This document shows, piece by piece, positions 709-30,155 of a stretch of 30,155 bases of DNA. Position 1 is the first letter of the stretch. The number at the start of each line of letters is the position of its first letter. The stretch is taken from positions 1 through 30,155 of IMG/VR virus record IMGVR_UViG_3300035070_000472; one strand, 5' to 3'. The stretch is from a virus. The translations under genes were made by a program, and so were the position numbers. A model generated the notes under the pieces. That model searched no databases, had not been told where the DNA came from, and saw only the letters and a program-made list of their open reading frames with translations.

Positions 709-1602
709 TTAAAATATATTTTCTTCATCATTTAATAAATCTTCTTCTTTCTTGTTTAGTGGATTAACACCACCAAGAGTAAAACCAAGTCCATTGTTAT
801 AATCAAACCTAAGAGGGTCACCAAGCATTGTAGGAGTGCCACCTGTCTCTTTGTCCTTAATTTTATATACATGAATTTCTGTTAGCATCCATAAGTCAGG
901 ATGAGATATTAACCTATGACAACATAAAAAATTATCTACTCTGTTTGGAAACACTTGACCACCTTCGCAGTCTGCTTTTCTTGGTGCTTGTATATGCCCA
1001 TTAAGTAAATGGTCAACAGGATAAACTCTTCTAGCTGCTTCAGTTTGTGGATGCATACAAACATAGATAGACTTTCCTGTTCTATTACAGAACTCTCTAA
1101 CATCATTACAAAAATGATAATTTCTATCGAATTGCCCTACTCTTCTATCATGATTTAAACCTGTATAAGGGTCAATAACACAAGCATCTACATCTGCATC
1201 TGCAAATATGTTTAATAGTTCTTTATGACTATATAGCTTACTATTGTCAATAAATTTAAAATACTGACTTATCTCTTGATTATAAAATTCTATTTTACTT
1301 TTAATAATATCTTTAAATTTTATGCCTAGCCACATTTGAATAATATCTCTTTTAAGTTGACCTGCTCTATTTTCACCACTCCAAATAATAAACTTCTTAT
1401 TATTAAGTTTAGCTTGACATAGTAAATACCATAATAACCAGTTAGTCTTACCTACATTATCAAGTCCTAGAACCATATTAAACTCTGCTCTTTTAAATAA
1501 AAAATGATTATCTAATTGGCAGCCAATACCTAAACCTTGTTTAATTTTACCATCTTTATAAGCATGAAGATATTTTACTGTTGAATTATCTTTTAATATC
1601 AT
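709..1602 (-). CDS. DnaB/RecA-superfamily ATPase, probable replicative helicase
   Basis: A 297-residue RecA-fold ATPase matching the C-terminal motor domain of DnaB-type helicases. The P-loop is GLDNVGKT (46-53). FIIWSGENRAGQLKRDII (71-88) fits the segment after the first strand of DnaB, where a Glu and an Arg precede a long helix. Walker B is VDACVIDPY with D144 at the end of the strand. SIYVCMHPQTEAAR follows, as in motif H3. The later stretch DCEGGQVFPNRVDNFLCCHR is typical of phage versions. There is no DnaB N-terminal primase-interaction domain, as in many phage helicases. The gene overlaps the upstream replication-initiator-like gene by 4 nt (ATGA), so the two are probably translated together. 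It is expected to unwind phage DNA at the origin or fork. A RadA/KaiC-like ATPase is the alternative. Confidence 0.8.
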   Translation of the reverse strand: MILKDNSTVKYLHAYKDGKIKQGLGIGCQLDNHFLFKRAEFNMVLGLDNVGKTNWLLWYLLCQAKLNNKKFIIWSGENRAGQLKRDIIQMWLGIKFKDIIKSKIEFYNQEISQYFKFIDNSKLYSHKELLNIFADADVDACVIDPYTGLNHDRRVGQFDRNYHFCNDVREFCNRTGKSIYVCMHPQTEAARRVYPVDHLLNGHIQAPRKADCEGGQVFPNRVDNFLCCHRLISHPDLWMLTEIHVYKIKDKETGGTPTMLGDPLRFDYNNGLGFTLGGVNPLNKKEEDLLNDEENIF

Positions 1603-2033
1603 TTCTTAATTAGTTTTTTTATATCATCACTAACTTTCAAAACATTATCATTAGCATAATTATCTTTTCTTATTTTATCTTTTCTTAATGCTTGAGTATT
1701 GGTGTAGCTTTGCTTTAGCTTTGCTGTAGCATTACCACCTTTAGAACCTGCTTCAACTCTTTTAGAATGTGCTATTGTTCTTTCTTTGTATTGTTTATCT
1801 AGCCATTTAATAACTATTTTATTCTTAACACACTTAATTAATTTAGTTTCTAGTAGTACATCATAATTAGTGCCTGTAATAGCTTTTAATTCTTGGTCTG
1901 ATACTTTACAACCTTTAGACCAGTAAAAGCAGCAGACTCTAATAAATGCTCCCTGCACTTCTATTTTTTGAAATGCTATAGTTCCTGTTAACCATTGGTT
2001 AGGAAAAAATTTAAAGTAAGGTAATTCTATCAT
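1599..2033 (-). CDS. replication initiator / replisome-organizer-like protein
   Basis: The 144-residue protein opens with PYFKFFPNQWLTGTIAFQ and EVQGAFIRVCCFYWSKG, the pattern of DUF1376 / Lin1244-type winged-helix domains found in phage replisome organizers. Residues 1-90 are this DNA-binding-like region. A low-complexity basic linker follows (GGNATAKLKQSYTNTQALRK), then a short C-terminal tail that could contact the helicase. The linker is encoded by 11-bp direct repeats (separate entry), as the lambda origin iterons lie inside gene O. The gene overlaps the helicase gene by 4 nt. Family and context support replication initiation; binding to the internal repeats is inferred. Confidence 0.65.
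   Translation of the reverse strand: MIELPYFKFFPNQWLTGTIAFQKIEVQGAFIRVCCFYWSKGCKVSDQELKAITGTNYDVLLETKLIKCVKNKIVIKWLDKQYKERTIAHSKRVEAGSKGGNATAKLKQSYTNTQALRKDKIRKDNYANDNVLKVSDDIKKLIKK
1662..1736. repeat. 11-bp iterons plus AT-rich flank inside the replication gene; candidate origin
   Basis: On the plus strand, CTTAATGCT (1684-1692) is followed by four consecutive 11-mers: TGAGTATTGGT, GTAGCTTTGCT, TTAGCTTTGCT and GTAGCATTACC (1693-1736). They share the core AGCnTTGCT. An A/T-only-rich, TCTTTT-repeat flank lies at 1662-1683. The 11-bp period is not a multiple of three, so it does not come from a repeated peptide; it points to DNA-level selection, one helical turn per unit. Iterons beside an unwinding-prone tract inside the initiator gene are the classic arrangement of lambdoid origins. 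Origin function is inferred. Confidence 0.6.
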
Positions 2034-26455: not shown

Positions 26456-26486
26456 AAAAAAAAAGCTACCTGTTAAAGTAGCTCTT
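26456..26486 (-). terminator. Rho-independent terminator after the moron-like gene
   Basis: On the minus strand AAGAGCTAC (26486-26478) pairs with GTAGCTTTT (26469-26461, one G-U) around an eight-base loop (TTTAACAG), followed by T to 26456. The perfect core is AGCTAC/GTAGCT. It separates the 80-aa gene from the tail-block promoter. Confidence 0.8.
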
Positions 26487-26511: not shown

Positions 26512-26754
26512 TTAAAATTGTATTAATAGTTTACTTGTTAAGTTTTCTATAAAATCTTTTTCAGTTTCAAAACAATTTGTTAAAACATAAACACCTTTAT
26601 TAGGCTCTAAATCTGTATAATTTTCAAATCTTAAAAAATAACCATACTCATTTGGTTCAGTAGTATAAGTATTAAATAAATTTTGAAATTTTTCTGCTTT
26701 ATTTCCAATAAAACCTAAATCTATCTGAATTGTTTCTTTTATTATTGTTTCCAT
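26512..26754 (-). CDS. moron-like gene: unknown 80-aa protein with its own promoter and terminator
   Basis: I use ATG 26754-26752 (METIIKETIQIDLGFIGNKA). A start at 26775 would add seven residues, but it lies only 3 nt from the predicted -7 box, upstream of the expected transcript start. The leader is AAAAACAAACAAA. The protein is compact and acidic, with beta-rich YGYFLRFENYT and GVYVLTNCFETEK segments and a helical C terminus (DFIENLTSKLLIQF). No family recognised. It is the only gene here flanked by both its own host-type promoter and a terminator, sitting between terminase and tail genes. Such cargo genes often act against host defence or on host fitness; nothing in the sequence specifies which. 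Confidence 0.6.
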   Translation of the reverse strand: METIIKETIQIDLGFIGNKAEKFQNLFNTYTTEPNEYGYFLRFENYTDLEPNKGVYVLTNCFETEKDFIENLTSKLLIQF

Positions 26755-26777
26755 TTTGTTTGTTTTTAAATACATTG

Positions 26778-26807
26778 CTAATATATAAATATATTTATAA
26801 ACTACAA
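26778..26807 (-). promoter_or_regulatory. host-type promoter for the 80-aa moron-like gene
   Basis: On the minus strand TTG (26807-26805), exactly 19 nt, TATATTAG (26785-26778), one mismatch to TAnnTTTG. The spacer contains TTTATAAATA, also present in the early promoter at 8981-9010, which has the same spacing. The expected start is near 26771. By consensus only. Confidence 0.55.
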
Positions 26808-26843
26808 AACAATTAACACTTTTTTTTAATATTTTTTTTTACA

Positions 26844-26933
26844 TCTTATCTTATCTTTTCTTATCTTATCTTAATGCTAAAGCATTGGTTAAGCAGTGCT
26901 ACAGCATTGCTATAGCTTTGCTCTATCTGTTGA
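26844..26933. repeat. noncoding copy of the 11-bp iteron block with TCTTA-repeat flank
   Basis: CTTAATGCT (26870-26878) is followed by AAAGCATTGGT, TAAGCAGTGCT, ACAGCATTGCT and ATAGCTTTGCT (26879-26922), then the weaker CTATCTGTTGA. The order matches 1684-1736, including the first unit ending in ATTGGT. Positions 26844-26869 repeat TCTTA. AATGCT/AGCATT form an inverted repeat. This 219-nt gap (26776-26994) holds no gene; besides these repeats it contains only the promoter at 26778-26807 and AT-rich sequence. It is a candidate second origin or initiator-binding site, or a decayed gene fragment. Confidence 0.6.
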
Positions 26934-26994
26934 GAGCTGTTTTTTAAACTTTTTAGTAAATAAGTGAAAAATTTTTATTTTAGTAAATGCTTGT

Positions 26995-27198
26995 TTATTT
27001 TTTTATTATTCTTACAAATATTCCAAACTCAATTAAGTAAGGTAAACAAAAACCAATGCCATAAATACAATCTTCTTTATTGTAGCTAAATGTAATTATT
27101 ACTAGACTTAGAATATCATAACCTGCATAATTAAACCACCCATAACTTAATAGTGCTTTATCTAAAAAAACTAATACAGGTCTTAATATTATTATCAT
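26995..27198 (-). CDS. small hydrophobic membrane protein, 67 aa
   Basis: The ATG overlaps the terminase stop by 1 nt (TAATG). The 67 residues are mostly hydrophobic: residues 1-13 (IIILRPVLVFL), about 27-38 (YDILSLVIITF) and a third segment FCLPYLIEFGIFVRII, ending in two Lys. Two or three short membrane segments are plausible. It is the last gene before the repeat block. No family recognised; the coupling to terL is the chief evidence. Confidence 0.5.
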   Translation of the reverse strand: MIIILRPVLVFLDKALLSYGWFNYAGYDILSLVIITFSYNKEDCIYGIGFCLPYLIEFGIFVRIIKK

Positions 27199-28403
27199 TA
27201 GTATAAAAAGTATTCTCCACTATTAGGATTTTGTAATTGATAGCTTACTGCATATCTAAGAGCATCAAGACAATGGTTCCAATTGTCACAGGGTGTTTGA
27301 CTCTTCTTTTCTAACCAACAATAATTATTCAATTCTTTAATTAAATCTGTACTATCTTCATCTATTATTAAATCATAGTCTTGTAATAAGCTAATGCCAT
27401 AAGTAATAGAACCTTGTCCTTTTATAGCAGCTACAACTTTATTATCTCTGCTCAATTCATTGATTAGTCTAGGCTCTGCACTATCACCTACTATTAAATT
27501 ATCACCTGCAAACTTTTTATTAAGAATTGCTATTTCACTTGTAGTTAATTTAGTTTGATAAAAGCATTGTTGTACATATATAATCTTATTGTCTTTGTCT
27601 ATGCTTGTTTTAATTAAAGTTGAAGGGTCATTACTAAATCCATAATCTTGACCAAAAACTATTTTACCTACTTGCTTAAATTCTCCTATTTTCCAATTAT
27701 TATAAATAACACCTTCTGCTTTATCTAACCAACTGCCTAAAATAGTATGCTTGTATCTATTAGGTCTCCTGTCTTTCATTTGCTCTATCTGCTTAATATA
27801 GCTTTCTGAAAGGTTTTCTATGTTGTCTAAGTAAGTAGTGTGAATGTAAGTAGTATCTTCTTTAACTGTATTGCTACCATCTTTAACACCTCTAGCTTCA
27901 AACCATCTTTGATAAATAAAGTTTTCTTTTGTTGTTGGATTAAGTATTAATATAACTCTATTGTCTTTGTTCTTTTGTCTAATACTTAAATCTATCTTAT
28001 CAAATATAGTTTCATCTGTTAGCTCTTCTGCTTCATCTAACACCCATGTAGTAACTCCCTGTAATGATTTGAGGTTTGCAGTTTGGTCACCTGAACTTGT
28101 TTTGATACCTCTAAATAAAATCTTACTGCCTGTTTGCTTGTTTATGATTTCATCTTTTGTAATGTGAAAGTCTTGTTCTATGTTTTGAAGTTCTAGCTTT
28201 TCTATAAACTCAGGAATGATAGATATACTTGCTGCTCTTAGTGTGTATCTAGTAAATAGTATCTTATGCCCTGCTTCATAAGTTAGAAGTGTTAGTAGTG
28301 TGTTAATAGCAAATGATTTGCCTGAACCTCTACCACCAGTCACAATGAAGTATCTAGTTGCATTTTCTAAGACTAAGTATTTATTGCTTAGCTTTAATTC
28401 CAC
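27198..28403 (-). CDS. terL: terminase large subunit
   Basis: A 401-residue Terminase_3/PBSX-like packaging motor. The ATPase has Walker A GGRGSGKS (23-30), Walker B VLDEAEE (121-127) and the coupling motif LILNPTT. The C-terminal RNase H-like nuclease shows VFGQDYGFSNDPSTLI (first Asp), IVGDSAEPRLINEL (second Asp) and HCLDALRYAVSY (third Asp). It pumps DNA into the prohead and cuts the concatemer. The start is GTG at 28403-28401, overlapping the small-subunit gene by 23 nt; no ATG is suitably placed. The sequence places it first among the virion genes. Confidence 0.93.
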   Translation of the reverse strand: MELKLSNKYLVLENATRYFIVTGGRGSGKSFAINTLLTLLTYEAGHKILFTRYTLRAASISIIPEFIEKLELQNIEQDFHITKDEIINKQTGSKILFRGIKTSSGDQTANLKSLQGVTTWVLDEAEELTDETIFDKIDLSIRQKNKDNRVILILNPTTKENFIYQRWFEARGVKDGSNTVKEDTTYIHTTYLDNIENLSESYIKQIEQMKDRRPNRYKHTILGSWLDKAEGVIYNNWKIGEFKQVGKIVFGQDYGFSNDPSTLIKTSIDKDNKIIYVQQCFYQTKLTTSEIAILNKKFAGDNLIVGDSAEPRLINELSRDNKVVAAIKGQGSITYGISLLQDYDLIIDEDSTDLIKELNNYCWLEKKSQTPCDNWNHCLDALRYAVSYQLQNPNSGEYFLY

Positions 28404-29806: not shown

Positions 29807-30154
29807 TTAATAATTTTTAGTTACATTATTATACTCTAATTTTAAAAAACTTATGTTTGACCTAATTGCATCACATACTCTATATCCTGAGCTAGTTAAT
29901 TTTCTTAATCTATAAACTTCTGGCACTTGTACATTAGCTTCATTAGTTGCTCTAGCTACAGATAGCTTTTCATTGTTTACTTTGTCATAAATTATTTCTT
30001 CATAATCTTGATGGTACTTTGATTTAATACCTTCAATGTAATACAAGTAACTTGTTAAGTTTTTTAGCTGCTCATTTAGCTTTACTCCATCACTAATACT
30101 AGTGTTATTATAATCTTCTATAATATCTGCTATTTTATTTAATACTTCATTCAT
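29807..30154 (-). CDS. hypothetical protein, 115 aa
   Basis: A helical protein starting NEVLNKIADIIEDYNNTSIS and continuing NEKLSVARATNEANVQVPEV, then YRLRKLTSSGYRVCDAIRSN. It is common in type among Bacteroidota phages before the sigma/terminase genes. The ATG is at 30154-30152, one base from the window edge, so an upstream extension cannot be excluded. RATNEANVQVPEVYRLRKL might be a DNA-binding helix pair. No family recognised. Confidence 0.6.
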   Translation of the reverse strand: MNEVLNKIADIIEDYNNTSISDGVKLNEQLKNLTSYLYYIEGIKSKYHQDYEEIIYDKVNNEKLSVARATNEANVQVPEVYRLRKLTSSGYRVCDAIRSNISFLKLEYNNVTKNY

Positions 30155-30155
30155 T

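Follow-up and report, generated by a model that had tools for sequence, protein, structure and literature searches.

Genome organization and position of the spacer element

The window, the whole 30,155-base stretch of viral DNA that was analysed, carries all its long genes on the minus strand. Circular assemblies occur among its relatives of 29–32 kb, several of which have end overlaps of 70–123 nt, and the window is a circular genome of which only about 145 bp, between its ends, are missing. The gene of a PDDEXK/RusA-like nuclease runs off the left end (the end regions concerned are 1–197 and 29807–30155). In the sense of transcription around the circle, the genes of the initiator, a helicase-like ATPase, the PDDEXK/RusA-like nuclease, and a DUF5681 protein are followed by terL, an ORF of 67 aa, the element described here, an ORF of 87 aa, and the structural genes. 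The element lies in a spacer, about 5.4 kb past the initiator gene in the direction of transcription, and has the same orientation as a corresponding site within that gene. Because the map is circular, the two sites are about 5.4 kb apart, and the distance of 25 kb given in the preliminary description is an artefact of the linear record. The genes and signals around the two sites are:

1599–2033, minus strand: initiator-like gene (144 aa), its product predicted to form a winged helix and then a long helix, structurally DUF1376-like, PHROG 29280
709–1602, minus strand: helicase-like ATPase gene, overlapping the stop of the initiator gene, PHROG 18375 (primase/helicase) and 19 (DnaB-like)
27198–28403, minus strand: terL (Terminase_3), upstream of the element
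26995–27198, minus strand: accessory ORF of 67 aa between terL and the element, missing there in most close relatives
26512–26775, minus strand: accessory (moron-like) ORF of 87 aa, downstream of the element; relatives lack it or have another ORF in its place
26778–26807, minus strand: TTG-N19-TATATTAG, a candidate promoter of Bacteroidota type for the 87-aa ORF, from sequence
26461–26486, minus strand: terminator-like hairpin and T run, 3′ of the 87-aa accessory ORF

The phage also has recombination-type genes, which encode an exonuclease VIII-like protein, the RusA-like nuclease, and an SSB. A helicase-loader gene was not recognized in the window, and the 96-aa ORF at 418–708 is without a family match. 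Position 26842, the downstream edge of the element, is a mosaic junction at which close relatives (L003, L004, L005, L013, and L015) diverge into different accessory ORFs or none.

The putative initiator protein

The 144-aa protein has no match in Pfam and no sequence match in the PDB. It matches PHROG 29280 and, weakly, a PHROG named "primosomal protein". Structure prediction gives a winged helix with a long helix after it (mean pLDDT 74). Among viral proteins, its structural neighbours belong to DUF1376 or carry the name replisome organizer, and its structural matches in the PDB are weak, the first being the N-terminal domain of DnaD with an E-value of 0.15. The fold prediction, the structural neighbours, the PHROG matches, and the overlap with the helicase gene indicate that the protein is a putative initiator.

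The spacer and the initiator gene contain the same repeats and AT-rich tract

Both sites follow a common plan in the sense of the gene: 11-bp units of the form AGC-N3-GCT-N-A are followed by AGCATTAAG and then by an AT-rich GATAA tract. The tract is on the same side of the repeats, and at the same spacing from them, in the spacer and in the gene. The parts of the two sites are:

26923–26945, minus strand: left shoulder AAACAGCTCTCAACAGAT, conserved, directly 3′ of the terL stop in most close relatives
26879–26922, minus strand: spacer iteron array of four 11-bp units, AGCAAAGCTAT, AGCAATGCTGT, AGCACTGCTTA, and ACCAATGCTTT
26842–26878, minus strand: spacer AGCATTAAG boundary and AT-rich GATAA repeat tract (GATAAGATAAGAAAAGATAAGATAAGATG), in all spacer copies
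1693–1736, minus strand: in-gene iteron array, GGTAATGCTAC, AGCAAAGCTAA, AGCAAAGCTAC, and ACCAATACTCA
1659–1692, minus strand: in-gene AGCATTAAG and AT-rich tract, encoding ...ALRKDKIRKD...

On the minus strand, positions 26919–26845 align without gaps to positions 1733–1659, and 58 of the 75 nucleotides are identical. The Smith–Waterman score of the spacer site against the in-gene site is 68, and the maximum reached on both strands of 200 first-order Markov genomes of the length of the window is 40. The view of the element as a noncoding twin of the in-gene iterons is thus borne out. Read in the frame of the gene, the spacer copy matches it at 12 of 25 codons and has three stops, each where the gene encodes lysine; this agrees with the earlier reading, and the comparison spans 23–25 codons. 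The window contains the pattern GCATTAARANAARA exactly two times and its reversed control not at all. The core AGC-N3-GCT has six occurrences in the 30 kb, of which five are inside the two arrays; with just one occurrence outside them, nothing in the window approaches a third array.

The most fitting description of the units is that of direct repeats with AGC and GCT ends. The inverted repeats noted in the preliminary description are weak: single-strand folding gives a z-score of −1.4, and the dyad AATGCT-TT-AGCATT is not common to all relatives. The spacer GATAA tract is a candidate DNA unwinding element. A structured RNA was rejected, as there is no Rfam match and the folding z-score is about −1.4. 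A host DnaA origin was also rejected, since the window contains just three scattered DnaA-like boxes, none of which is near either site.

The spacer copy is conserved in related phages

In a first set of loci, selected solely by terL similarity, the element lies 28 nt past the terL stop in most relatives whose terL is 93–95% identical, and is located further down from terL in relatives with an inserted ORF. A second set comprised 50 records selected by similarity of terL or of the initiator. In these records, GCATTAARANAARA matches an in-gene form, GCATTAAGAAAAGA, and a spacer form, GCATTAAGATAAGA. The two forms never lie on opposite strands, and the reversed control of the pattern has no match.

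One same-strand spacer copy is present, in the spacer after terL, in each of the 15 near-complete genomes whose initiator is of type 1 and 47–100% identical in amino acid sequence to that of the window. This result was obtained by looser matching and self-alignment, and the 15 genomes include two near-duplicate pairs, leaving about 13 distinct ones. The spacer copy is 4.2–6.5 kb downstream of the initiator start and is the top same-strand self-match in each of the 15 (an end-overlap duplicate was excluded in G038). Related genomes thus keep the copy that the preliminary description had located in the window.

When viral contigs were scanned for the spacer form, at least 119 matched; in the 80 that were fetched, nearly all copies are noncoding and follow terL or an accessory ORF with a terminator. 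The source phage is of a marine, Bacteroidota-type lineage that is widespread and uncultured. In GTDB genomes, 11 scattered matches to the spacer pattern were found. The element used as a DNA query against an annotated phage collection gave matches at chance level only.

Signs of selection on the DNA of the element

We compared 115 distinct spacer sites collected with a search pattern that did not include the 11-bp units. In units 1 and 2 the AGC and GCT edges are kept and the middle three bases are variable; the conservation of the edges fades in units 3 and 4. Substitutions are therefore distributed non-randomly relative to the 11-bp core. Arrays of the close clade are 26 or 48 nt long, and 12 of 12 are equal modulo 11; the length of the array changes only by whole 11-bp units. 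Within the spacer copy, conservation is highest in the GATAA tract.

These features bear on the possibility that the spacer copy is a pseudogene scrap, the decaying duplicate of a part of the initiator gene. The 12 codons of 25 that still match in the frame of the gene are what such a duplicate might retain. However, in no genome does the homology go beyond the edges of the repeats and the AT tract into the flanking codons, and the copy is conserved across initiators that are only 48% identical. Furthermore, the indels are whole 11-bp units, and the spacer tract is near-pure GATAA, purer than the in-gene tract, which carries A where the pure form would give stops. Together with the kept AGC and GCT edges and the change of frame described below, these observations rule out a pseudogene scrap, to which we assign a negligible probability. 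The preference of the preliminary description for a DNA element kept without coding is supported: the copy is conserved in related genomes and its substitutions follow the 11-bp core, the two points on which that description said the idea could fail, and its length changes by whole units.

The element is coupled to the type of initiator

The spacer copy is absent from all four genomes with a type-2 initiator (G012, G013, G014, and G021), the terL of which is 80–81% identical to that of the window. The terL distance of these genomes equals that of several phages with the spacer copy. In G043, terL is only 30% identical, yet the spacer copy is present after it. From the absence in the four type-2 phages and the presence in G043, it follows that the element goes with the initiator, not with terL. 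The copy was also not found in G016, for which no initiator relative was found, or in G048, which has a remote initiator.

Type-2 initiator genes carry GCATTAAGATAAG in the next reading frame, so that it encodes SIKIRKDK and not ALRKDK. Since GCATTAAGATAAG is read in two frames in the two initiator subtypes, it is the DNA that is kept and not the peptide. Origin-like DNA in a different frame was seen in the initiator genes of L243, L255, L292, L301, G012, and G021.

Proposed function of the spacer element

The element is probably a second site for the phage initiator, resembling oriR of phage SPP1, and would serve as a second origin or as a fork-stalling switch. The sequences establish the anatomy of the two sites, their conservation, the variation by units, the coupling to the type of initiator, and the constraint on the DNA across reading frames; from these we infer initiator binding, melting, and origin or fork-block activity. 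The 11-bp AGCNNNGCTNA direct repeats of both sites would be the binding units of the 144-aa winged-helix protein. At the in-gene, oriL-like site, the adjoining GATAA tract would melt and the product of the adjacent helicase gene would be loaded, which by analogy with SPP1 may be the start of theta replication. The spacer, oriR-like site could be a second origin; alternatively, initiator bound there could stall replication forks and so lead to a recombination-dependent concatemer phase. The exonuclease VIII-like, RusA-like, and SSB genes are compatible with a concatemer phase driven by recombination. In two clades the middle 3–4 bases differ between the units of the gene and those of the spacer (for example, AGCAGGGCT versus AGCCACCCT), and identical recognition of both sites by the protein is therefore an assumption.

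The GC/AT skew at fourfold sites of 13 genomes has no clean origin signal at the spacer site, and it is not decisive for origin mapping because it is confounded by gene modules. Over the stretch from about 1 to 10 kb past the initiator gene, the fourfold-site AT skew of these 13 genomes is positive, and across most of the remaining sequence it is close to zero or negative; replication or gene class could be the cause.

The main rival to the second-origin reading is an initiator-dependent operator or titration site, which would regulate the downstream accessory or late genes or soak up the initiator and would not be an origin. The binding units would be the same as those in the gene, and a transcriptional role is possible because promoter motifs are located 48–65 nt downstream of some spacer copies. 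The Bacteroidota promoter motif TAnnTTTG is enriched there, being present within 180 nt downstream of 45 of 109 copies against a background of 16%, the full −33/−7 promoter form is present for 14 of 109 against a background of 2%, and some copies are flanked by terminator-like hairpins. A pure operator or titration site needs no GATAA tract, yet this tract is more conserved than the rest of the spacer copy and has the side and spacing relative to the repeats that it has in the gene. We consider this explanation unlikely. A broader scheme, in which one initiator couples replication to the late programme, the oriR-like element stalls or restarts forks and gates late promoters, and the sister subtype gave up the second site, is rather improbable.

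Proximity to terL, which all copies adjoin, is what would be expected of a packaging (pac) signal recognized by the small terminase. Such a role is highly improbable, as the copy follows the initiator and not terL (G043, with a terL 30% identical, has it, and G012–G014, G016, and G021, at 79–81%, lack it), and the repeats also occur inside the initiator gene. The element might also be a recombination junction, a short conserved block of homology through which the accessory cassettes that lie between terL and the genes after it are shuffled. Close relatives diverge exactly at its downstream edge, and inserted ORFs occur upstream as well as downstream of it. Nevertheless, a sharp edge may result from strong selection on the block, and this reading would leave unexplained why the initiator gene has a counterpart, why the element goes with the type of initiator, and why the array varies by whole units, which makes a recombination junction very unlikely. 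Among the three functions offered in the preliminary description, a second origin thus fits best, and a recombination site has indirect backing from the mosaic junction at the downstream edge.

Comparison with known replication origins

In Bacillus phage SPP1, oriL is inside gene 38 and oriR is intergenic; both consist of direct repeats and an AT-rich DNA unwinding element, and both are bound by the replisome organizer gp38 (G38P) (PMC6316719). The segment with oriR contains three morons bracketed by transcription signals, and in the current model gp38 at oriR stalls forks (PMC6316719, PMC3485210). The phage studied here similarly has one array in the initiator gene and one in noncoding DNA of the late region, near moron genes and transcription signals, and both its sites combine direct repeats with an AT-rich tract, as in SPP1. 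In SPP1 the initiator gene is in an operon with the helicase gene, and here it overlaps the helicase-like gene; phage recombination genes are present. The phage studied here differs in its putative initiator, a DUF1376-like protein of 144 aa, in its repeat, the 11-mer AGCNNNGCTNA, in the distance between the sites, which is about 4–6.5 kb and not 12–13 kb, and in the position of the second site after terL; a counterpart of the helicase loader gp39 was not recognized. That many related phages keep the second copy suggests a layout of two origins, or of an origin and a fork block, resembling that of SPP1.

In the lambda O-type origin, iterons are located inside the initiator gene O with an AT-rich region beside them. 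The in-gene iterons and adjoining AT-rich tract described here are similar, whereas the iteron length and the initiator family differ. The lambda-type layout is not known to include a second noncoding copy. The lytic origin of phage P1 is inside repL, and synonymous changes showed that its AT-rich tract is essential (PMC9948254); the noncoding repL copy in that study was built by the authors and is not natural (PMC9948254). Here, as in P1, the origin DNA would be within the gene of its own initiator, and the initiator is a different one.

Two-origin phages are known mainly from SPP1, and the purpose of the second site there, as a late origin or a fork barrier, is still a model. The SPP1-type architecture appears here in a large group of uncultured phages, with a repeat that looks unrelated and an initiator that is DUF1376-like. 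Natural variants have two or four units, and the spacer site is present or absent by initiator subtype; the role of the second initiator site is therefore testable by comparison. For Bacteroidota-type phages, the analysis also names concrete candidates for the origin, the initiator, and the unit that it binds. In the open-access literature, we found no report of origin repeats in the initiators of DUF1376-type or Bacteroidota phages.

A motif search found no spacer twin in the cultured phages Cellulophaga phi10:1, Flavobacterium morran9-1, and Leeuwenhoekiella Arctus_1, in which in-gene repeats are present; two sites are therefore not obligatory in the wider initiator family. Short repeats beside an AT-rich tract are located in the initiator genes of the Cellulophaga, Flavobacterium, and Leeuwenhoekiella phages (L354, 10599–11459; L355, 14539–15222; L356, 8400–9092), and these are candidate in-gene origins that have so far been unannotated.
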